The notes below the pieces were generated by a model. That model searched no databases. It was not told the origin of the DNA and saw only the letters and a program-made list of their open reading frames with translations. 64,000 nt of DNA. It comes from Maricaulis alexandrii (lineage in GTDB: Bacteria > Pseudomonadota > Alphaproteobacteria > Caulobacterales > Maricaulaceae). The stretch covers positions 496,001 through 560,000 of the forward strand of contig NZ_SWKP01000005.1 in the NCBI RefSeq assembly GCF_005871165.1, written 5' to 3'. A program made the translations under genes and the position numbers. Of the stretch, positions 51,764-64,000 are shown piece by piece. Every line of letters starts with the position of its first letter. The stretch's first letter is position 1.

Positions 51764-52113
51764 GCTTGCCTGGCTGAACCTGTTTTCTTTTCCTTTATCG
51801 CCGCTTTGCCGGCTTTCCAACTCTCATACCGCGCTAGGCCCGGAAATATTTCGAACACGCAGCATATTTCGATGCGAATTTCCTTCAGCGTCGAAGCAGT
51901 GATTTGGTTACTAGGTGTCGCATACATGTAACGGTTTCTGGAAAGTTTAGCAAAATCAACGGGAAAACCCGTGAGGTTCGTTATCAAATCTAAGTTTTCG
52001 CAAGTGCGGAAATGCTTCCAGCTCAAAGCAGGTCTGGTCAGGCCGGGCCGGACTGGCTAGATCGGTCGTTAATTCCATACCGTAACAGTGAAAACAGGGG
52101 CTGCATCCGCATC
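51764..52113. other. Divergent region, MarR / TonB receptor
   Basis: These 350 bases are AT-richer than the flanks. They contain two palindrome-like sites near 51842-51878 and copies of the CATACC element at 51825-51830 and 52076-52081. No ORF is convincing. Confidence 0.5.
51842..51878. promoter_or_regulatory. Candidate MarR operators
   Basis: GGAAATATTTCGAA (51842-51855) contains the palindrome GAAATATTTC, and TTCGATGCGAA (51868-51878) is a second inverted repeat. They lie about 80-115 bases before the marR start, a plausible autoregulatory site. Confidence 0.35.
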
Positions 52114-54654
52114 ATGCTGAAGCAAAGAGCACTGACGACCACCATTCTCTCCGCCGCCGCTTTCTCCATCCTGGGGACGGCTGCCGCTCATGCGCAGGTC
52201 GACGTCGTGACCGTCACCGCGACCAAGCGCGAAACGAGCACGCAGGACATTCCGCTCGCCGTCAACGCGATGAATGAAGAGACGCTGGACGAACTCGGCG
52301 TCGACGTGTTCACCGACTATCTGCAACAACTGCCGGGCGTCACCGCCGGCGGCTCCGGCCCCGGCCAGTCCACGATCTATATCCGCGGCCTCGCGTCCAC
52401 CACGCCGAACCTGACCACGGCCGGTGTCGCCGGTCTGGCCCCGAACGTGGCGCTCTATCTCGACGAGCAGCCGGTGTCGCAGCCGGGCCGTAACCTGGAC
52501 GTCTATGCCGCCGATCTGGCGCGCGTCGAGGTCCTGCCGGGACCGCAGGGCACGCTCTATGGTGCATCCTCGCAGGCCGGTACGGTCCGCCTGATCACCA
52601 ATCGTCCGGATCCGTCCGCCTTCTACGCCTCCACGAACTTCGCCGTGTCCTTCACGCAGGACGGTGAGATGTCGAACAAGGCCGAAGCCGTCGTGAACGT
52701 TCCGGTCGCCGACAATTTCGCACTGCGCGGTGTCGTCTATGTCGACCAGCAGGGCGGCTATATCGACAATGTCCCGGGTGTCGTGAACGCGTCGGAATCG
52801 GCCCGTTTCCGCCCGGCCGGCACGGTCCGCGCCAATGGCGTTCCGGTCAGCGCCACGCGCGCCGGCTTCCAGTCGACCGCCGATCTGTCCGGCGTCACCT
52901 TCCTGGACGCCAACAATTCGGACCTGCTGGAAAAGAACTTCAACGATTCCACCTATTCCGGCTTCCGCATCAGCGCGCTGTATGACTTCAATGCCGACTG
53001 GTCCCTGACCGTCATGCACATGCAGCAGCAGCTGGACTCCGAAGGCGTCTTCTTCGTCGATCCGACCCTGGACGACCTGGAAGTCTCGCGCTTCGAGGAA
53101 GACGAGCTGGACGACTACTTCCACAACACGAGCTGGACCCTGGAAGGCCGCCTCGGCGCCCTGGAAATGGTCTACACCGGTGCTTACACCGACCGTGAAA
53201 CCGACCAGCGGGTCGACTACACCGACTATCTCTTCGTCGGTCAGTACCTGCCCTATTACATCTGTGATGGCTCTGTGACCTATCCGGGCGCTGCCGCCCC
53301 GTCGGGCACGTGTCAGGCCCCGAACCTGTTCGTGAACTCCGGGACGAATACCAGCGTGTTCACGCAGGAACTGCGCTTCAACACGCCGGAAGATCGCCGC
53401 ATCCGCGCGACCTTCGGTGGTTTCTACTCCGACATGGAAATCGCGGAGCTGAACGACTTCACCTATCCGGGGTCCGAATACGCCATTTCCTTTGACGGCG
53501 TGACGACCGGCTTCGGTCCGAACTATCCGCTGACCAATATCGACGCGACCGGCCCTGTCGGCGACGCCTCGGACGGCTACTTCTCCGATCCGGGCCCGTT
53601 CCCCGCCGGTGTGATCTTCCGGAACGACGTGCTGCGCACGGACACCCAGTTCGGCTTCTTCGGTGAGACCACGTTCGACATCACCGAGCAGTTCTCGCTG
53701 ACCGTCGGCGCCCGCTATTACGACATCGAGGTTGACCTGCAGGGCAGCGCCAACTCGTCCTTTGGCAATTTCGGCGCGACCACGGACGCCCAGCTGTTCG
53801 GCACGAACATCTCCGCGCTCTATGCCTCGGACAATCCGTTCGGCAATCCGGATGCGGCCGCCACTGACGGCTTCATCTTCAAGGGGACGCTGGAATGGCG
53901 CCCGACCGATACGACGCTCTTCTACGCGACCGTGTCGGAAGGCTTCCGTCCGGGTCTCCTGAACCGTCCGGGTGGCGCAGCAGGCCCCGGTGGCTACACC
54001 GTGCCCTACGCCCTGGATACGGATGACGTGACCAATTACGAATTTGGCTGGAAGACTGACCTCTTCGACAACCAGCTGCGCTTCAACGGCAACGCCTTCT
54101 TCGTCGAGATCGAAAATCTGCAGACCACGATTTTCGACCCGTCCATCACCAACCTCTTCTTCTCGGATAATGCGGCCAACGCCGAAATCCGCGGTGTCGA
54201 AGGTGACGTGACCTGGGCGCCGGCCGACATTGAAGGTCTGACGGTTGTCGGTGCCTTCTCCATTCTCGACACCGAGATCACGGAAGTCCTGACGCCGACC
54301 AATGACGTTGTCGCCGGTTCCGAGCTGGCCTTCGCGCCGAGCTATCAGGCCAACCTCCGGGCCCGCTATGAGTGGTATCTGGACAATGGCATGATGGCGC
54401 ACGTGATGCCGCAGATCACCATCACCGACGACAGCTGGTCCGACGTGATCGAGATCAACAAGGCGGAGATCGAGGGCTATGCCTCGCTGAACTTCTCCAC
54501 CGGTCTGACGGGTGACAACTGGTCGGTCGAAGTCTTCGCCGACAACCTCACCAATGAGCGTGGCGAGATGGCGAACAATTTCGTCTTCGACCGCGAACAG
54601 GTGACGATCATTCGTCCGCGAACCGTCGGCGTGCGTGTCGGGGTGCAGTACTAG
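52114..54654 (+). CDS. TonB-dependent outer-membrane receptor
   Basis: This is an 846-residue receptor. The signal peptide ends SILGTAAAHAQ, followed by VDVVTVTATKRETSTQDIPL. The plug has LQQLPGVTAGGSGPGQSTIY, IRGLASTTPN and LPGPQGTLYGASSQAGTVRL; the last strand ends in VGVRVGVQY. This subtype (VTVTATKR, QGTLYGA) is abundant in marine and sphingomonad-like degraders. The ATG at 52114 lacks a strong ribosome site. It faces the MarR-CoA-transferase operon and may bring in a substrate that MarR senses. The ligand is unknown. Confidence 0.93.
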   Translation: MLKQRALTTTILSAAAFSILGTAAAHAQVDVVTVTATKRETSTQDIPLAVNAMNEETLDELGVDVFTDYLQQLPGVTAGGSGPGQSTIYIRGLASTTPNLTTAGVAGLAPNVALYLDEQPVSQPGRNLDVYAADLARVEVLPGPQGTLYGASSQAGTVRLITNRPDPSAFYASTNFAVSFTQDGEMSNKAEAVVNVPVADNFALRGVVYVDQQGGYIDNVPGVVNASESARFRPAGTVRANGVPVSATRAGFQSTADLSGVTFLDANNSDLLEKNFNDSTYSGFRISALYDFNADWSLTVMHMQQQLDSEGVFFVDPTLDDLEVSRFEEDELDDYFHNTSWTLEGRLGALEMVYTGAYTDRETDQRVDYTDYLFVGQYLPYYICDGSVTYPGAAAPSGTCQAPNLFVNSGTNTSVFTQELRFNTPEDRRIRATFGGFYSDMEIAELNDFTYPGSEYAISFDGVTTGFGPNYPLTNIDATGPVGDASDGYFSDPGPFPAGVIFRNDVLRTDTQFGFFGETTFDITEQFSLTVGARYYDIEVDLQGSANSSFGNFGATTDAQLFGTNISALYASDNPFGNPDAAATDGFIFKGTLEWRPTDTTLFYATVSEGFRPGLLNRPGGAAGPGGYTVPYALDTDDVTNYEFGWKTDLFDNQLRFNGNAFFVEIENLQTTIFDPSITNLFFSDNAANAEIRGVEGDVTWAPADIEGLTVVGAFSILDTEITEVLTPTNDVVAGSELAFAPSYQANLRARYEWYLDNGMMAHVMPQITITDDSWSDVIEINKAEIEGYASLNFSTGLTGDNWSVEVFADNLTNERGEMANNFVFDREQVTIIRPRTVGVRVGVQY

Positions 54655-54687
54655 GCCCTGACAAGAGCTTGGCCAAAAGCCAAAATG

Positions 54688-54715
54688 GAAAGCGTCCCTG
54701 CAAGGGGACGCTTTC
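54688..54715 (+). terminator. Intrinsic hairpin after TonB receptor gene
   Basis: An 11-bp perfect stem, GAAAGCGTCCC with GGGACGCTTTC, encloses a 6-base loop. The T tract after it is weak. Confidence 0.7.
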
Positions 54716-54747
54716 TGCGTTCTTCAAGACCGGCGGAGCCCGATAGC

Positions 54748-56748
54748 GTGTCAGAGGAAACGGACAGTCATGTCCAGGCGCTGAATACGGCGCAAAAACA
54801 GATGTATGAGAACCGGTTCGATGCCGCGCTGGAGACGCTCCGGCCCGTGCTCGAGGCAGAACCGGATCATACCGATGCACTCTACATGCAGGCGGTTTGC
54901 TGCCGCTATCTCCAGCAATTCGATGCCGCCCAGGCGGCGCTTGACCGGATCAAGCGGACCGCACCGGATTTCGGACGCGCCTTCCAGGAAGAAGGGCACC
55001 TCCTGCGCCAGCGTGGCGAGACCGGTCGTGCCCTGACCGCCTATCAGCGTGCCTGCCAGTTCAATCCGGCCCTGATCGCCAGCTGGCGGGCCCAGGCCGA
55101 ATTGCTCCAGGCTGCCGGCCGTCCCGAGGAATCGCGGCTGGCTGCGGCCCAGGCTGATCGGGTCAGCGCGCTGCCGCGCGAGCTGATCTCGGTCACCCAT
55201 CTCCTGCACGAGGGCAAGCTGCTCAAGGCGGAGAAGCTCTGCCGCGCCTTCCTCCAGAAAACCCCGCACCATGTCGAGGGGATGCGTCTCCTGGCGGAAC
55301 TGGGCAACCGGTTCGGCGTGCTCGAGGACGCGGATTTCCTGCTGGAAAGCGCGATCGAGTTCGATCCGGACAATCCGCAATTGCGGCTCGACCACATCCA
55401 GATCCTGCGCAAGCGGCAGAAGTTCGAAGCCGCCCTGGCCCAAGCCCGGCATCTCTACGAAACCGAGCCGGACAATCCGCTCTTCCAGTCCCACTTTGCC
55501 ATCGAGAGCATGCAGACCGGGCATTACCAGCGCGCGCTGGACCTGTTCGACCAGGTGCTCGAACGCCTGCCCCAGGACCCGGCGACGCACACCTCGCGCG
55601 GTCATGCCCTCAAGACGCTGGGCCGCCAGGACGAAGCCGTGGCGGCCTATCGCCGGGCCTACAGCGCCCAGCCGGATTATGGCGATGCCTGGTACGGGCT
55701 CGCCAATCTGAAGACCTACCGTTTCACCGATGAGGAGATTGCCGGCATGCAGGCCCAGGAGGCCTCGCCCGATCTCACCTTCGCCAATCGCATCCATCTC
55801 TGCTTTGCACTGGGCAAGGCTTTCGAGGATCGTAAGGACTATGACGCGTCCTTTGCCTATTACGAGCGCGGCAATGCGCTGAAAAAGCTCCAGACCCGCT
55901 ATACGGCGGAGCAGATGGACGAAGAGCTCGAGGCGCAGGCGAGCCTGTGCACGCCGGACCTGTTTGCCAAACAGGGCGGCAAGGGCTGCGATGCGCCGGA
56001 CCCGATCTTCATTGTCGGACTGCCGCGGGCCGGCTCCACCCTGCTGGAGCAGATCCTGGCCTCGCACAGCCAGGTCGATGGCACGCTGGAATTGCCCAAC
56101 ATCCTGGCCCTGTCGCACCGCCTGCGTGGCCGCAACCGCTCCGACCGGACGCGCTATCCGCGCATCCTGAACGAGCTGGAGGCCGATCAGCTGCGCGAGC
56201 TGGGCGAGGACTATATCGAGAATACCCGCATCCACCGCGCCGGTGCGCCCTTCTTCACCGACAAGATGCCGAACAATTTCCGGCATATCGGCCTGATCAA
56301 GCTGATCCTGCCCAATGCGAAGATCATTGATGCCCGCCGCGAGCCCATGGCCTGCTGCTTTTCCGGCTTCAAACAGCTCTTCGCCGAGGGCCAGGAATTC
56401 ACCTACGGGCTCGAGGAAGTCGGCCGCTATTACCGCGGCTATGTCGAGCTGATGGAGCATTGGGACCGGGTCCTGCCCGGCGAGATCCTGCGCGTGCAGT
56501 ACGAGGATGTCGTGGCTGATCTGGAGACCCAGGTCCGCCGCATCCTGGATTTCTGTGGCCTGCCCTTCGAACAGGCCTGCCTGGATTTCCACGCCACCGA
56601 ACGGGCGGTGCGCACCGCCAGTTCCGAACAGGTCCGCCAGCCCATCAACACGAAGGGGATCGAGCAATGGCGCCATTTCGAGGCGCATCTCGATCCGCTC
56701 AAACAGGCGCTGGGCCCGGCGCTCGAGACCTATCGCACACCCGCCTGA
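54748..56748 (+). CDS. TPR-repeat sulfotransferase
   Basis: This is a 666-residue protein. The first 350 residues are TPR-like helix pairs (QMYENRFDAALETLRPVLEA, FQEEGHLLRQRGETGRALTA, HTSRGHALKTLGRQDEAVAA). The C-terminal part is a sulfotransferase domain with the PAPS-binding loop FIVGLPRAGSTLLEQILASH near 421-440, and FFTDKMPNNFRHIGLIKLIL further on. It would transfer sulfate from PAPS to a protein, lipid or glycan bound by the repeats. The GTG at 54748, with GGAG upstream, begins family-like sequence; the longer frame reads through the terminator. It is followed 29 bases later by the BCCT gene. Confidence 0.88.
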   Translation: MSEETDSHVQALNTAQKQMYENRFDAALETLRPVLEAEPDHTDALYMQAVCCRYLQQFDAAQAALDRIKRTAPDFGRAFQEEGHLLRQRGETGRALTAYQRACQFNPALIASWRAQAELLQAAGRPEESRLAAAQADRVSALPRELISVTHLLHEGKLLKAEKLCRAFLQKTPHHVEGMRLLAELGNRFGVLEDADFLLESAIEFDPDNPQLRLDHIQILRKRQKFEAALAQARHLYETEPDNPLFQSHFAIESMQTGHYQRALDLFDQVLERLPQDPATHTSRGHALKTLGRQDEAVAAYRRAYSAQPDYGDAWYGLANLKTYRFTDEEIAGMQAQEASPDLTFANRIHLCFALGKAFEDRKDYDASFAYYERGNALKKLQTRYTAEQMDEELEAQASLCTPDLFAKQGGKGCDAPDPIFIVGLPRAGSTLLEQILASHSQVDGTLELPNILALSHRLRGRNRSDRTRYPRILNELEADQLRELGEDYIENTRIHRAGAPFFTDKMPNNFRHIGLIKLILPNAKIIDARREPMACCFSGFKQLFAEGQEFTYGLEEVGRYYRGYVELMEHWDRVLPGEILRVQYEDVVADLETQVRRILDFCGLPFEQACLDFHATERAVRTASSEQVRQPINTKGIEQWRHFEAHLDPLKQALGPALETYRTPA

Positions 56749-56777: not shown

Positions 56778-58745
<1,968 letters not shown>

Positions 58746-58843
58746 TCCGGCAATAACCGACTGGATTAATGGGTTTTTAAAGCGCACCAATCTAGCCTCT
58801 GCCCGAATTGGGACATCCGTTCCGCAACCGGGCAGGGGCAATC

Positions 58844-59728
58844 ATGGCGTTTCGAAAACAATGGGTCGCAGCTCTGGTCCTGGCCGGGCTGGCCGGCCCG
58901 TCTGCGCTGGCCAATGGCTGGTCGGATGAGTGGGGCGGCAAGCTGCTCCTGACCCGCGGCATCTCCACCGTGGAGGGCGCGGGCGGCGGCGGCCTGGCGA
59001 GCTGGGCGCTGATCACCGGCAATGAGACCGAGCGCGGCATTGGCGGCACCGCCCATGCCAGCTGGGTCGAACTGCCCGATTACAGCTTTTCCGCCCAGGG
59101 TGTCGCCCTAGGTTTCCACGACCGGTTCGAACTGTCCTATACGCGCCAGGCTTTCGACACCGAAGCCGTGGGCGCTGCGCTCGGCCTCGGCCAGGGCTTC
59201 ACCTTCGAACAGGATGTCTTCGGTGCGAAACTGCGCCTGTTCGGCGATGCGGTTTATGACCAGGACAGTTGGCTGCCCCAGATCGCCGCCGGCGTGCAAT
59301 ACAAGGTCAACAACCAGTCCGCTGTCCTCAACGCGATCGGGGCGCAGGATGATGAGGGCGTCGATCTCTATCTGGCCGCGACCAAGCTCTATCTTGATCG
59401 ATCCCTCCTGCTGAACGCCACCGTGCGGGCCACCCGTGCCAATCAGCTCGGCATTCTCGGTTTCGGCGGGGATCTGGAGGACGATTATCAGTGGGCCGGC
59501 GAGTTCTCCGCCGGCTATCTGGTCAATCGCCGTCTCCTGATCGGCGCGGAATACCGCTTCAAGCCCGACAATCTGGGCCTTGCCGGCGAGGATGACTGGC
59601 TCGATGTCTTTGCCGCCTGGGCCGTGAATGAGCATCTCACCCTGACGGCCGCCTATGTGGACCTCGGCTCCATCGTGACCTTCGAGGACCAGCGCGGTCT
59701 CTACTTTTCCATTCAGGCCGGTTTCTAG
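58844..59728 (+). CDS. DUF3034 outer-membrane beta-barrel protein
   Basis: This is a 294-residue exported protein. The signal peptide is AFRKQWVAALVLAGLAGPSALA, and the mature part begins NGWSDEWGGKLLLTRGIST, typical of DUF3034. Alternating hydrophobic strands with aromatic ends (the C terminus is YFSIQAGF) show an outer-membrane barrel. The function is unknown. GGCAGGGGC precedes the ATG. It heads a tight group with a globin, a cupredoxin and an EAL protein; the four genes are separated by 9, 40 and 7 bases. Confidence 0.87.
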   Translation: MAFRKQWVAALVLAGLAGPSALANGWSDEWGGKLLLTRGISTVEGAGGGGLASWALITGNETERGIGGTAHASWVELPDYSFSAQGVALGFHDRFELSYTRQAFDTEAVGAALGLGQGFTFEQDVFGAKLRLFGDAVYDQDSWLPQIAAGVQYKVNNQSAVLNAIGAQDDEGVDLYLAATKLYLDRSLLLNATVRATRANQLGILGFGGDLEDDYQWAGEFSAGYLVNRRLLIGAEYRFKPDNLGLAGEDDWLDVFAAWAVNEHLTLTAAYVDLGSIVTFEDQRGLYFSIQAGF

Positions 59729-59737
59729 GAGGCCGAG

Positions 59738-60250
59738 ATGATGATCCGATCCCTGTTGCTTGCGGGCCTTTTTTCCGCCGGTCTGTCTGCCGCTGCCCTG
59801 GCCCAGTCGCATCCGCCCCACGCCCAGCCGGGCGAGCTGGAAGTGGACCCCTATACCGTGTCCGACGCCAATGCCGGGGCCGATCCGATCGAGGATGCGG
59901 ATGTGTTCGTGGCCTTTGGCGGCGAGGCGGGGATTGCCCGCGTGGTCGACGGCCTGCTGGAACGGGTCCGGGAGGATGAGCGGATCGAGGGCATTTTCCG
60001 GGCCTCCGACTGGCCGCGCCTGCGCCGGACCCTGATCGAGCAATTCTGCTACATCCTCGGCGGGCCCTGCACCTATACCGGTCGTGACATGGCCTCGGTG
60101 CACCGCGATCACGGCATCACCACGCGCGAATTCAATGCGCTGGTGGAGAATCTCCAGGATGCCATGGATGCCGAGGGCATTCCCTTCGCCCTCCAGAACC
60201 GGCTTCTGGCCCGGCTTGCTCCGATGCATCGCGATGTCGTCACCCGTTAG
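59738..60250 (+). CDS. Exported group 1 truncated haemoglobin
   Basis: This is a 170-residue protein with a clear signal peptide (LLLAGLFSAGLSAAALAQ), so the globin lies in the periplasm. The globin domain (about 60-170) has FGGEAGIARVVDGLLERVRE and FCYILGGPCTYTGRDMASVH, with the probable proximal haem ligand His122. The two Cys (in FCYILGGPC) are conserved in this branch and could form a disulfide or bind haem edge groups. Most truncated haemoglobins are cytosolic; export suggests oxygen or nitric-oxide chemistry, or signalling to the EAL protein encoded two genes on. TAGGAGGCC precedes the ATG. Confidence 0.92.
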   Translation: MMIRSLLLAGLFSAGLSAAALAQSHPPHAQPGELEVDPYTVSDANAGADPIEDADVFVAFGGEAGIARVVDGLLERVREDERIEGIFRASDWPRLRRTLIEQFCYILGGPCTYTGRDMASVHRDHGITTREFNALVENLQDAMDAEGIPFALQNRLLARLAPMHRDVVTR

Positions 60251-60290
60251 GCTTTACGCGATCTCAAGACCGCTCTGCTCTATTGGGGCT

Positions 60291-60875
60291 ATGATGCGTT
60301 TGCTTAGCCTTTTGGCCGCGCTGCTTGTGTCCGGTCAGGCCGCCGCCGAAGACGTGACCGTCCGGGTCACCACGCCGGCCGGAGAGCCCGTTGCCCATGC
60401 CGTGGTCAGCCTGCCGGGCGCCTTGCCCGCTTCGCCGGCGGACGTGGTCCATGAAATGGCCCAGGAAGACCTCCGGTTTGATCCCTTTGTCCTGGTCGTG
60501 CCGCAGGGGGCCGAAGTGGTCTTCCCCAATCGCGACCGGGTCCGGCACCACGTCTATTCCTTCGCGCGCGACAATGCCTTCGAGCTGGAACTCTATGGCC
60601 GCGAGCAGGAACGCAGTGTCGTTTTCGACGCCCAGGGCAATGTCCCGATCGGCTGCAATATCCATGACAATATGATCGCCTATATCCGTGTCGTGGATAC
60701 GCCCCACGCTGTGGTGACGAATGCTGACGGCGTGGCGGTTCTGGAGGGTGTGGCGGCCGGGCCCGTCACGGTCTGGCACCCTTATGCCAATGCCGAGAAC
60801 AATCGGCTCGTCCTCGATGCGCCCGCCGATGGCAGCACGCTGGATGTGACCCTCGACGTCCACGGGCGGCGATAG
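60291..60875 (+). CDS. Exported cupredoxin (methylamine-utilisation-like)
   Basis: This is a 194-residue protein. The signal peptide is MRLLSLLAALLVSGQAAA. The cupredoxin fold carries type-1 copper ligands: His86 or 87 in VRHHVYSF, then Cys122, His125 and Met128 in IGCNIHDNM. A C-terminal carboxypeptidase-regulatory-like segment (GVAVLEGVAAGPVTVWHP) follows. Database names for such proteins refer to methylamine utilisation, but no mau genes are present, so an electron-transfer or copper-sensing role with the neighbouring globin is more likely. The ATG at 60291 follows GGGG; the ORF upstream overlaps the globin gene and is not used. Confidence 0.87.
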   Translation: MMRLLSLLAALLVSGQAAAEDVTVRVTTPAGEPVAHAVVSLPGALPASPADVVHEMAQEDLRFDPFVLVVPQGAEVVFPNRDRVRHHVYSFARDNAFELELYGREQERSVVFDAQGNVPIGCNIHDNMIAYIRVVDTPHAVVTNADGVAVLEGVAAGPVTVWHPYANAENNRLVLDAPADGSTLDVTLDVHGRR

Positions 60876-60882
60876 GTCCGCC

Positions 60883-63213
60883 ATGCGCTTCCGCTCCCTC
60901 CGGACCAAGCTCGCCGTGATCTATGCGGGCCTGTTCGCCCTCGTCATGCTGGCGGCGGCAGCAGCCTCTTTCTATACCGTACAGCGCAATGCGACCCGGC
61001 TGGTCCAGGACGAGATGGCCGCCATGGCCGCCGTGTTCGACCGGATCTGGGCCCTCAATGCCCGCCAGATGGGCGATGCCGCCGACATCCTGTCGCGGGA
61101 TTTCGGTTTCCGGGCTGCTGTGGCGACGCGCGACGTTCCGACCATCGAGTCGGCCCTGGACAATCTGCGCCAGCGCTTTGAATTCGACATTGCCTTCGTT
61201 ATCGACCAGCAGGGCCAGGCCATCGGTGCCGGCGACATCCTGTCGGGGGAGACCATCCGCCTGATCGAGACCAGCCTGGAAGCCCGCGAGACGCCGGGCG
61301 GGGTGGTGGTGCTGGACGGATCAGCCTTTCATGCCGTGGCCCGCCCGGTACGCGCGCCCGATCATGTCGGCTGGGTGGTGTTCGCCTACAGCCTGTCGAG
61401 CCAGGGCCTCAATGACCTGACGGAACTGTCTGCCATTCCGCTGGAGGCGCGCCTGTTCTGGTCTGCCGGCGATGCGGGCTGGCAGGCCTCACGCAGCGAT
61501 GGCGATGATTGGCGCAACCTTTTGGGCGAGACGCCCGGCGAACAGGATGTCGGCTATTCCCTGGATCGCGAGCATCTGGTCAGTGCCATTGCCGTCGACA
61601 GTCTCTCCGACACGATGTCGGCCGTCCTTGTCCTGCAATACCCGGTCGCCCAGGCCATGGCGCCTTTCCGCACCATGATGCTGGGTCTGCTCGCCGCCGG
61701 CCTGGCCGGACTGGCCATCATCCTGGTCGGCAGCTGGCTGATTGCCCGCGGCCTGTCGCGGCCGCTGCAGGCGCTCGAGGCCGCCGCCGGCCGTCTGGCC
61801 AAGGGCGAGGCCACCAGTGTCGCCGCGCCCGGCCAGGACGAGATTTCCCGCCTGGCCCACAGTTTCAACACGATGGGCGAACAGATCGCCGCGCGTGAAA
61901 AGCGCATCACCCATCTGGCCCTGCATGACCCGGAGACCGGCCTGGCCAACCTCCAGGCGCTGGAACAGGCCGTGCGCGACCTGTCCGACCAGGGCGAGGC
62001 CGAGCAGGTTTTCGCCATTGCGGTGGGGATAGACCGTTTCCACCAGGTTCGCGGGGCGATCGGGTTTGCCCTGTCCTCCCAGATGATCGTCGATCTGGCC
62101 GCGCGCCTGGAACAGGTCTGTCCGGATGTCTGCCTTGGCCGGGTCGCCACCGATTCCATCGGTCTCGTCCTGCGGGCCGAGCATGCTGCCACCGTGGAGG
62201 CCGTCGCCCGCCAGATCGTCGACCTGGCCAATACGCCGGTCACCCTGCGCGATGAGCCGGTCGATCTGCACGCCACGATCGGAATCGCTTCGCTGGCGGA
62301 TACCCGGCAGGCTGGCCTGACCGTGATCGAGTGCGCCGGTGTCGCCATCGACCAGGCCCGCCAGGCGCAACAGCGTTTCGCCCGTTTTGACGGCACCGCC
62401 TATGGCGATCCGACCCGGAAGCTTTCCCTGATGAGCCGCATGTCCGCCGGTCTGAGCGCCGGGGATCTCTATCTGAGCTATCAGCCCAAATATGATTTTC
62501 GCACCCGGAGCATCCGGTCCTGTGAGGCCCTGATCCGCTGGGAAGACCCGGAGCGCGGTTTCATCGGTCCGGATGACTTCATCCCCATGGCCGAGGAAAC
62601 CGGCCATATCCTGCCCCTGACGGAATGGGTGCTGGACCGGGCCATTGCCGACCAGGTGCGCCTGAAAGCGGCGGGTTTCGACATCCAGATCGCAATCAAT
62701 ATCTCCGGTCGCCTGATCTCCGATCCGCGCTTCATCGACACGGCGCTCGACCGTCTGCGCGGCCGCGCCGGCCGGATCTGTTTCGAGATCACCGAAACCG
62801 CCGTCATCGACAATCCCGACCAGGCGCTGGCGCAAATGGAGCGTCTGCGGGAGGCGGGGATTGTGATTGCCATCGATGATTATGGCTCCGGCCTGTCCTC
62901 CCTGGCCTATCTGCGCTCGATCCCGGCCGAGGAGCTGAAGATCGACAAGGCCTTTGTGCTCAATCTCGATGAGTCCCGCGAGGACCGGCTGCTGGTGAAG
63001 TCCACCATCGACCTGGCGCACTCGCTGGGGCTGAAAGTGGTGGCAGAAGGCGTGGAAACCGCGGAATCCGTGGCCGTGCTGGCGGGCATGGGCGCGGACT
63101 ATGCCCAAGGATATCACATCGGACGACCCGTCCCGCTGGGCGACTTCCTCGCCTCGCTCAAGGGCCGGTCCGGCGACCCGGATCAGCGCCCGGCTTCCAG
63201 GGCGGCCAGCTAG
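60883..63213 (+). CDS. Membrane c-di-GMP phosphodiesterase with degenerate GGDEF domain
   Basis: This is a 776-residue protein. Two helices (about 11-31 and 264-288) flank a periplasmic sensor domain of about 230 residues. Next come HAMP (about 288-340), a GGDEF-like domain (about 345-500) and an EAL domain (about 520-765). The GGDEF signature is replaced by VATDS near residue 420, so no cyclase activity is expected. The EAL site is complete: CEALIRW at 547-553, EITETAVI, AIDDYGSGLSSL, KIDKAFV and VAEGVET. It should break down c-di-GMP in response to a periplasmic signal, plausibly from the globin and cupredoxin encoded just upstream, 7 bases before it. Confidence 0.9.
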   Translation: MRFRSLRTKLAVIYAGLFALVMLAAAAASFYTVQRNATRLVQDEMAAMAAVFDRIWALNARQMGDAADILSRDFGFRAAVATRDVPTIESALDNLRQRFEFDIAFVIDQQGQAIGAGDILSGETIRLIETSLEARETPGGVVVLDGSAFHAVARPVRAPDHVGWVVFAYSLSSQGLNDLTELSAIPLEARLFWSAGDAGWQASRSDGDDWRNLLGETPGEQDVGYSLDREHLVSAIAVDSLSDTMSAVLVLQYPVAQAMAPFRTMMLGLLAAGLAGLAIILVGSWLIARGLSRPLQALEAAAGRLAKGEATSVAAPGQDEISRLAHSFNTMGEQIAAREKRITHLALHDPETGLANLQALEQAVRDLSDQGEAEQVFAIAVGIDRFHQVRGAIGFALSSQMIVDLAARLEQVCPDVCLGRVATDSIGLVLRAEHAATVEAVARQIVDLANTPVTLRDEPVDLHATIGIASLADTRQAGLTVIECAGVAIDQARQAQQRFARFDGTAYGDPTRKLSLMSRMSAGLSAGDLYLSYQPKYDFRTRSIRSCEALIRWEDPERGFIGPDDFIPMAEETGHILPLTEWVLDRAIADQVRLKAAGFDIQIAINISGRLISDPRFIDTALDRLRGRAGRICFEITETAVIDNPDQALAQMERLREAGIVIAIDDYGSGLSSLAYLRSIPAEELKIDKAFVLNLDESREDRLLVKSTIDLAHSLGLKVVAEGVETAESVAVLAGMGADYAQGYHIGRPVPLGDFLASLKGRSGDPDQRPASRAAS

Positions 63214-63270
63214 AGCCCCAGCGGCTTCAATTCACGGATCAGATCAATCAGCAGGCGCAGGCCGCCGCCG

Positions 63271-64000
63271 TCACAGCCATTTCATCTTCCGGAACAGCCA
63301 GACCTGGCCGATGCCGATCGCGGTCAATATGCCGACGAACCACCAGAAGGCGCTGCCCAGGTCCGAGCCCGGAATACCGCCGACATTGATGCCCAACAGG
63401 CCGGTCAGGAAGCCCAGCGGCAGGAAGATGGCGGCGATCAGGGACAGGACGTAGAGATTCTTGTTCATCCGGTCGGCCAGGCCATTGGCCAGTTCGTCCT
63501 TGACGATCTGGGCCCGCTCGCGGATCGCGTCCAGGTCTTCCAGATAGCGCGTGATCCGGTCGAGATTTTCCTGCAGGCGACGCTTGGCCGGCGGGTCCAG
63601 CCAGACGAAATCCATCGTCCGTAATTGCGCCATCACATCGCGCTGGGGCGCGAAATAGCGGCGGAAAATGATGGCCTGGCGGCGCAGCGTATTGATGGTC
63701 TGGCGTTCCTCGATGCTCGGCTCGTCCATCACCATTTCCTCGACATCATCGAGGGCGGTGTGCAGCTCGGTCATCACCGGCTCCATCCGCTCGAACAGGC
63801 GGGCCGACAGCATGGCGATGAAATCGCCGGAATGCTTCGGGCCCTGGCCGGCGGCGAGGCGGTCCTGGATGTCCTTCACCGCCTTGAGCGGACGCCGCTG
63901 CACCGTGATGATCCGGTGGGCATCGATCCACAGCCGGATCGAGACCATGTCCTCCGGCTGGGCATCCTGGTTGAGATTGACGCCGCGCAGGATCATCAGC
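63271..64000 (-). CDS. zntB: CorA-superfamily metal transporter, ZntB type (cut by window edge)
   Basis: The frame is open to the right edge, so the N terminus is missing. The 240 or so visible residues cover the helical funnel (ARLFERMEPVMTELHTALDD, INTLRRQAIIFRRYFAPQRD) and two C-terminal helices. The selectivity loop after the first helix reads GLLGINVGGIPG, where CorA proteins have GMN and Met is replaced by Ile. The short tail FRKMKWL is typical. ZntB-type members move zinc, CorA magnesium. The 57 bases between this stop and the EAL gene stop hold nothing convincing. Confidence 0.88.
   Translation of the reverse strand, partial: LMILRGVNLNQDAQPEDMVSIRLWIDAHRIITVQRRPLKAVKDIQDRLAAGQGPKHSGDFIAMLSARLFERMEPVMTELHTALDDVEEMVMDEPSIEERQTINTLRRQAIIFRRYFAPQRDVMAQLRTMDFVWLDPPAKRRLQENLDRITRYLEDLDAIRERAQIVKDELANGLADRMNKNLYVLSLIAAIFLPLGFLTGLLGINVGGIPGSDLGSAFWWFVGILTAIGIGQVWLFRKMKWL

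Follow-up and report, generated by a model that had tools for sequence, protein, structure and literature searches.

What brings together, in a single run of genes, an outer-membrane barrel, an exported globin, an exported copper protein and a membrane-bound phosphodiesterase for cyclic di-GMP (c-di-GMP)? The question is raised by positions 58844-63213 of a 64,000-nucleotide stretch of the Maricaulis alexandrii genome (hereafter the window; contig NZ_SWKP01000005.1, positions 496,001 to 560,000). An earlier note on this DNA had described four consecutive genes with gaps of 9, 40 and 7 bases, and the open reading frame (ORF) listing and Pfam matches bear this out: all four lie on the + strand, in the order DUF3034, globin, cupredoxin and dCache_3-HAMP-GGDEF-EAL receptor. 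Our analysis indicates that the four genes very probably form one sensing system outside the cytoplasm. A more specific reading, one periplasmic metalloprotein sensing cassette built of two pairs (DUF3034-globin and cupredoxin-receptor), is given a probability of roughly one half. The features of the locus are as follows.

58844..59728, + strand: predicted outer-membrane beta-barrel of family DUF3034, 294 amino acids, with a glycine-rich N-terminal segment (PF11231, AlphaFold2, Foldseek)
59738..60250, + strand: exported group-1-type truncated globin, 170 amino acids (Bac_globin Pfam match, PDB profile matches, hydrophobic N-terminal segment)
60047..60070, + strand: Cys pair of the globin, codons 60047-60049 and 60068-60070, a probable disulfide (paired presence in relatives)
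60101..60103, + strand: codon of the proximal haem-ligand His of the globin (His in 124/124)
60291..60875, + strand: exported cupredoxin with a C-terminal CarboxypepD_reg-like part (PDB profile matches, annotation of relatives)
60546..60674, + strand: type-1 copper ligand positions His86, Cys122, His125 and Met128, spaced C-x2-H-x2-M (invariant in relatives)
60883..63213, + strand: membrane receptor/phosphodiesterase with transmembrane segment, periplasmic dCache_3 domain, second transmembrane segment, HAMP, degenerate GGDEF and EAL (Pfam, model)

Neighbourhoods were compared at 126 DUF3034-centred loci, comprising 45 genome stretches, the best 80 loci of a GTDB contig pattern search and the window; L117 and L051 are apparently the same place, L046 holds a decayed DUF3034 copy and some loci are cut by contig ends. 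The co-occurrence in other genomes on which the proposal of the earlier note depended is found: DUF3034 and globin are both present in 124 of the 126 loci, and all four genes, with a receptor of the dCache-EAL type, in 81. These counts are taken from hidden Markov model (HMM) calls rather than from ORF clustering, in which greedy ORF choice dropped some module genes. The 81 full loci display several gene orders: in 48 the EAL and cupredoxin genes diverge from DUF3034-globin, 22 read cupredoxin-EAL-DUF3034-globin, 6 have the EAL gene turned, 4 are arranged as in the window and 1 otherwise. Clustering of 1543 neighbourhood ORFs returned four recurrent families. The fifth commonest family is found in 7 loci only, and a role for further neighbour genes was rejected on this ground. 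The 10 neighbour ORFs seen at some receptor-less loci (DUF885, methylmalonyl-CoA mutase, class II aminoacyl-tRNA synthetase, Sel1 repeats and five unmatched) have nothing in common. Conservation of the four-gene set is far beyond chance co-location.

The set is both widespread and patchy. DUF3034 occurs in 39 of 398 Pseudomonadota genomes and in 7 of the 59 genomes of the window's own family, and the cassette is present in several classes of Pseudomonadota. At least 589 DUF3034 relatives were confirmed by the GTDB search, the best 80 of which were used as named loci and include Phenylobacterium, Brevundimonas, Caulobacter, Sphingomonas, Sphingobium, Erythrobacter, Arenimonas, Lysobacter, Rhodanobacter and others. 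Furthermore, DUF3034 is found on 13 plasmid records, 9 of them from Caballeronia. Gene order was examined on two of the 13: on a Caballeronia grimmiae plasmid the four genes follow one another as in the window (their annotations being DUF3034, group 1 truncated hemoglobin, methylamine utilization protein and EAL), and a Novosphingobium plasmid carries them as two divergent pairs.

Within the window's genus, the cupredoxin was detected in 4 of 19 genomes. The window and loci L188, L189 and L193 hold all four genes in the same order between genes for a BCCT and a CorA transporter; the BCCT of L189 is only 45% identical, and in L193 the EAL gene is followed by about 2.8 kb of additional DNA. The same site is empty in the close genomes L190-L192, where only about 15 bp separate the orthologues of BCCT (77-80% identical) and CorA (82-88% identical), and is also empty in L194 and L195, whose BCCT is more distant. 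A genome-wide search of L190-L192 revealed no cupredoxin (completeness being 89% and 69% for two of these genomes; for the other three genes the search covered the site only). The four genes thus behave as a single unit, present or absent together at one site, with gain and loss indistinguishable here.

A finer structure is apparent within the set. DUF3034 and globin are same-strand neighbours in all 81 full loci, across five gene orders. The cupredoxin is found in 38 of 39 DUF3034 genomes compared to 22 of 359 others (E up to 1e-10), counts that ignore kinship. Twenty cupredoxin places away from DUF3034 were examined, 9 of them in DUF3034 genomes and 11 in DUF3034-negative genomes (of the 22 with a cupredoxin). 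Where the DUF3034 locus lacks a receptor, the distant cupredoxin adjoins a dCache-EAL gene in five of six genomes (G213, G225, G389, G261 and G246). Of the remaining places in DUF3034 genomes, in G126 the EAL gene accompanies DUF3034 and globin and the cupredoxin lies apart, with no EAL gene, and G216 and G340 hold extra cupredoxin copies with and without EAL, respectively. The cupredoxin adjoins a dCache-EAL gene in 8 of the 11 DUF3034-negative genomes and does not in 3. Partial correlations of tree distances over the 81 loci are highest for cupredoxin-EAL (0.51) and DUF3034-globin (0.50), followed by globin-EAL (0.36), with no significance claimed.

The receptor can also be exchanged. At L076, L081, L138, L141 and L155 it is a HAMP-HisKA-HATPase kinase, with a sub-threshold four-helix (4HB_MCP_1) match in four of the five and none in L141; a HAMP-PAS-GGDEF-EAL protein takes its place at L129, where a 4HB match again falls below threshold, and at L157. 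The HMM built on the kinase sensors picks out 9 loci at E < 1e-20, and exactly these carry a short single-domain cupredoxin. Receptor type and cupredoxin type therefore switch together in 9 of 9 loci, the independent part of this agreement being smaller because six sensor rows and seven cupredoxin rows served as HMM seeds. A further seven loci (L115, L122, L124, L127, L131, L140 and L150; mostly Lysobacterales) have the cupredoxin with a shorter Cache-like membrane protein as receptor.

Several points weigh against the two-pair cassette. Besides the neglect of kinship and the use of seed rows mentioned above, two of the 126 DUF3034 loci lack the globin, genome G078 has DUF3034 and globin and no cupredoxin at E 1e-10, and in G142 a receptor-less DUF3034 locus is combined with a distant cupredoxin without adjoining receptor. 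The exchanged-receptor rows fall in one 12-row set of the DUF3034 tree (support 85), and the receptor/cupredoxin exchange may hence be a single event. No recognised enzyme domain was found when the shorter receptors of L115, L122, L124 and L127 were scanned. Finally, 26 of the 124 rows of the DUF3034 tree (L046 and L051 left out) have no receptor call in the examined stretch, some of them at contig ends; 22 of these also lack the cupredoxin (with one exception) and 4 retain it. These rows show that DUF3034-globin can be encoded away from the receptor. Together with the patchiness in the window's family, they are also what speaks for a loose co-localisation without joint function. Such an arrangement is very unlikely on the data, as the set is retained through five gene orders, is carried by several classes of Pseudomonadota and is present or absent as a whole block at one site.

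We next consider what each protein contributes to the cassette. The DUF3034 gene matches PF11231 over the full model (1-255 of 255) with 340 bits (cut-off 25), placing it firmly in the family. AlphaFold2 modelled residues 31-294 as a 12-strand barrel with a predicted local distance difference test (pLDDT) value of 84.1, for which the top Foldseek match is the FapF barrel (TM-score 0.55), followed by porins at lower scores. On this model, DUF3034 is predicted to be an outer-membrane barrel without a close solved relative. No mention of PF11231 or IPR021393 was found in the open-access papers searched, where mentions of DUF3034 are apparently unrelated or misprinted and no function was found. 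At L046 (G078:C3:66000-80000), in a genome without cupredoxin match at E 1e-10, lies a second copy of DUF3034 that is decayed and interrupted by a stop codon.

The globin matches PF01152 (Bac_globin) with 58.7 bits (cut-off 21). Its best PDB relatives by profile are trHbN and other group 1 truncated haemoglobins, with 113 residues aligned gap-free, and the proximal His, which we take to be the F8 position, is kept in 124 of 124 family rows. By profile and proximal ligand alike it is a group 1 truncated haemoglobin. A distal Tyr/Gln pair is typical of this group and is seen in PDB 5ab8. A distal B10 Tyr with a polar E7/E11 partner was looked for in 122 globin rows and was not found: the position aligned to the trHbN Tyr (B10) is V/L/M/I in 120 of 122 and Tyr in none, that aligned to the trHbN Leu is L/F/V/I in 121 of 122, and that aligned to the trHbN Gln (E11) is L/F/I in all 122 (presumably trHbN positions 33, 54 and 58, respectively). 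The distal haem pocket of the family is thus, judged by its aligned residues, apolar, arguing against tight O2 storage and against Tyr/Gln-assisted nitric oxide (NO) dioxygenation in the style of trHbN. An apolar haem pocket suits NO or CO binding or a redox-active haem, with O2 weakly held. Of 122 rows, 114 have both Cys51 and Cys58 (domain numbering), 8 have neither and none has only one, suggesting a probable disulfide; the 8 rows without the pair are Caulobacteraceae-like, and so represent few events. In 121 of 123 members the globin domain follows a hydrophobic segment, whereas such a segment is found within the domain itself in only 2 of 123. Furthermore, 34 globins, about a quarter of the relatives, contain a lipobox-like motif (a loose motif, called without a predictor) and are probably lipid-anchored.

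These observations bear on an alternative in which the globin is an enzyme acting on NO or peroxide and supplied with electrons by the cupredoxin, while DUF3034 passes substrate or product and the phosphodiesterase is only a co-regulated response. Haem and copper positions are intact, as this would need, and peroxidase and NO-dioxygenase activities have been reported for truncated and other haemoglobins. However, B10, E7 and E11 are apolar in nearly all the globins, and the Tyr/Gln pair of trHbN, which is considered to support NO dioxygenation, is absent. Where the two pairs separate, moreover, the cupredoxin mostly follows the receptor and not the globin (exceptions being G142 and G126). We regard such an enzyme as rather unlikely. 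Denitrification was likewise considered and rejected as a general setting: among the 39 DUF3034 genomes, nirK (TIGR02376) is over cut-off in 3 and nirS (PF02239) is matched at E < 1e-50 in 5, with weaker matches in 10 more. NO from other sources is a possible signal.

The third gene, with a second ATG at 60294, has no Pfam match above cut-off (CarboxypepD_reg reaches 22.5 compared to 32.3 bits). Its profile matches nitrite reductase, amicyanin and pseudoazurin in the PDB, weakly (E 8e-5 to 0.05), and one relative is annotated 'methylamine utilization protein'. The type-1 copper positions, which we assume to be the ligands, are invariant in relatives (His 102/102, Cys 101/101, His 101/101 and Met 101/101) with C-x2-H-x2-M spacing. 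Because of the PDB profile matches and the four invariant positions, the gene is assigned, from its ligand set, to the amicyanin-like type-1 (blue) copper proteins.

Variation in cupredoxin number and context was also observed. L138:8064-8869 holds a tandem pair of short cupredoxin genes beside the histidine kinase and the DUF3034-globin pair. At L047 and L048 one cupredoxin is accompanied by two dCache-EAL genes in the same locus, and may serve both receptors. At L184:3649-5643 an extra cupredoxin copy has as neighbours an RND pump gene and a gene that matches Porin_4 below threshold, which may represent another pairing of these cupredoxins with an outer-membrane protein. Among 9 ORFs from the surroundings of extra cupredoxin copies are a redoxin, a Band_7 protein, an RND pump and a porin match below threshold.

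Given the invariant type-1 ligand positions, and the occurrence of the cupredoxin/dCache-EAL pair in DUF3034-less genomes, the system could be a copper sensor, in which the cupredoxin signals its copper loading to the receptor, with globin and barrel as accessories. This leaves the presence of the cupredoxin in 38 of 39 DUF3034 genomes unexplained. It also sits poorly with the neighbourhoods, which have no fifth recurrent family and hence no copper export gene, and with the nature of type-1 sites, whose tuning favours electron transfer over metal exchange. A copper sensor is accordingly judged unlikely.

In the receptor, EAL (231.9 bits, cut-off 31.3), GGDEF (53.3, cut-off 23.8), dCache_3 (51.2, cut-off 25.7) and HAMP (40.3, cut-off 25) are all recognised. 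All 81 full-length sequences (two short ones were left out) retain the EAL positions E548, N606, E635, D665, D666, K686, E722 and Q742, which we take to be catalytic, and by these residues the domain is predicted to be catalytically competent. The GGDEF motif is degenerate in the window receptor, which reads ATDSI there, and the motif of an active diguanylate cyclase was not found in it; across the 81 sequences, each of the motif's letters is retained in 44 to 59. The dCache_3 domain is also matched by 43 of 44 relatives at E 1e-3. A model of the N-terminal part (pLDDT 88.8) best matches chemoreceptor models, then Vibrio Cache sensor domains including LuxQ. A sensor motif, DFGFR..A.AT.D, is nearly invariant among the cassette receptors.

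The sensor domain also has some likeness to CHASE4, with a sub-threshold match in the window (21.1 compared to 26.2 bits) and matches at E 1e-3 in 25 of 44 relatives. The CHASE4 domain of Pseudomonas aeruginosa IsmP is reported to bind Fe3+, with an effect mimicked by haem (PMC10904736). Iron or haem could therefore be sensed by the dCache/CHASE4-like domain here, with DUF3034 and globin delivering or scavenging haem. We consider this quite improbable, as the invariant blue-copper positions are left unexplained and no Cys or His column of the sensor domain is conserved in 85% or more of the aligned receptors. Moreover, the sensor profile returned no IsmP chain from the PDB at E up to 0.1, the presence of IsmP in that PDB copy being unchecked.

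Returning to the two-pair cassette, co-occurrence, presence or absence as a whole block, intact metal and catalytic residues and exchange of output make a coupled periplasmic relay that would set c-di-GMP well supported at the level of gene content and residues. This part of the earlier note's reading stands, and the signal may be any of those it names (O2, NO, redox or copper). The cupredoxin is the likely direct input to the receptor, because its copper positions are invariant and it mostly shares the fate of the receptor, and DUF3034 and globin are the likely upstream unit, because of their shared fate and their near-exclusive occurrence in cupredoxin-bearing genomes. In the mechanism we propose, the globin would meet the signal near the outer membrane, binding a small gas (NO and CO being favoured chemically) or changing redox state. 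The haem would then hand its state to the cupredoxin, most simply as one electron. The Cu(I) and Cu(II), or apo and holo, forms of the cupredoxin would dock differently on the dCache domain, and HAMP would relay the docking state to the EAL domain, altering c-di-GMP breakdown. In exchanged receptors, a four-helix-like domain may read the cupredoxin in place of dCache. Taken further, the blue-copper protein would be a diffusible reporter between the outer-membrane barrel/globin and inner-membrane Cache or four-helix-like receptors, in a trans-periplasmic redox relay, carried across by haem and copper as electrons or as redox changes that a gas induces, and driving c-di-GMP turnover or phosphorylation; we advance this extension tentatively, as a possibility.

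Around the cassette in the window, the gene upstream encodes a BCCT choline/betaine-type transporter and the one downstream, on the opposite strand, a CorA/ZntB-type transporter. A promoter scan of 58500-63400 detected no sigma-70-like site, and the 6 weak terminator-like sites in the same interval are uninformative compared to 2.7 (standard deviation 1.7) in shuffled sequence. Elsewhere in the window, a TPR-sulfotransferase protein is encoded at 54685-56748, directly downstream of a long ORF (52012-54654) that resembles a TonB-dependent receptor, as judged by eye only.

No description of the DUF3034/globin/cupredoxin/EAL set or of a trans-periplasmic relay was found among the open-access matches listed. 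The relay, if true, would represent a kind of trans-periplasmic redox signalling for which no description was found in the literature searched. DUF3034, a widespread family, gains a concrete setting, an exported globin clade with an unusual pocket is now defined, and the data suggest that c-di-GMP enzymes and histidine kinases can take their signal input from a cupredoxin. As the cassette is compact and self-contained, and sister strains differ naturally in having or lacking it, the question of the sensed signal is directly testable.

Comparison with known systems highlights both the likenesses and the differences. IsmP-ImcA of P. aeruginosa combines a Cache/CHASE4-type sensor on a GGDEF-EAL protein with metal sensing (PMC10904736); unlike the cassette receptor, IsmP has a PAS-PAC region and senses iron directly, and a term search of that paper gave no occurrence of cupredoxin or of periplasm. 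Globin-coupled sensors with GGDEF, EAL or HD-GYP output link a globin to c-di-GMP turnover (PMC8846402, PMC10882959). Theirs is a 3-over-3 globin fused to the enzyme, whereas the cassette has a separate exported 2-over-2 globin, encoded in the window by its own gene with its own export segment and not fused to an output. PMC8846402, a review of c-di-GMP stimuli, does not use the word copper in its main text. Amicyanin and copper nitrite reductase share the cupredoxin fold with the C-x2-H-x2-M loop, as the PDB profile matches indicate, but differ from the window cupredoxin in its extra C-terminal CarboxypepD_reg-like part (sub-threshold) and in having a signalling receptor as partner gene. Mycobacterium tuberculosis trHbN, the best PDB relative of the globin, has the proximal His in common with it; the window globin differs in being exported, in its Cys pair and in the replacement of the distal Tyr/Gln by apolar residues. 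LuxPQ offers a parallel in architecture: LuxQ reads a separate periplasmic protein, LuxP, and both systems pair a dCache-type periplasmic domain on a membrane signalling protein with an adjoining gene for a periplasmic partner, the receptor model matching LuxQ (3c38/3c30) among others. The partner in LuxPQ has a sugar-binding-protein fold, whereas here it is a blue-copper protein, accompanied by two further exported proteins, one of them a globin.

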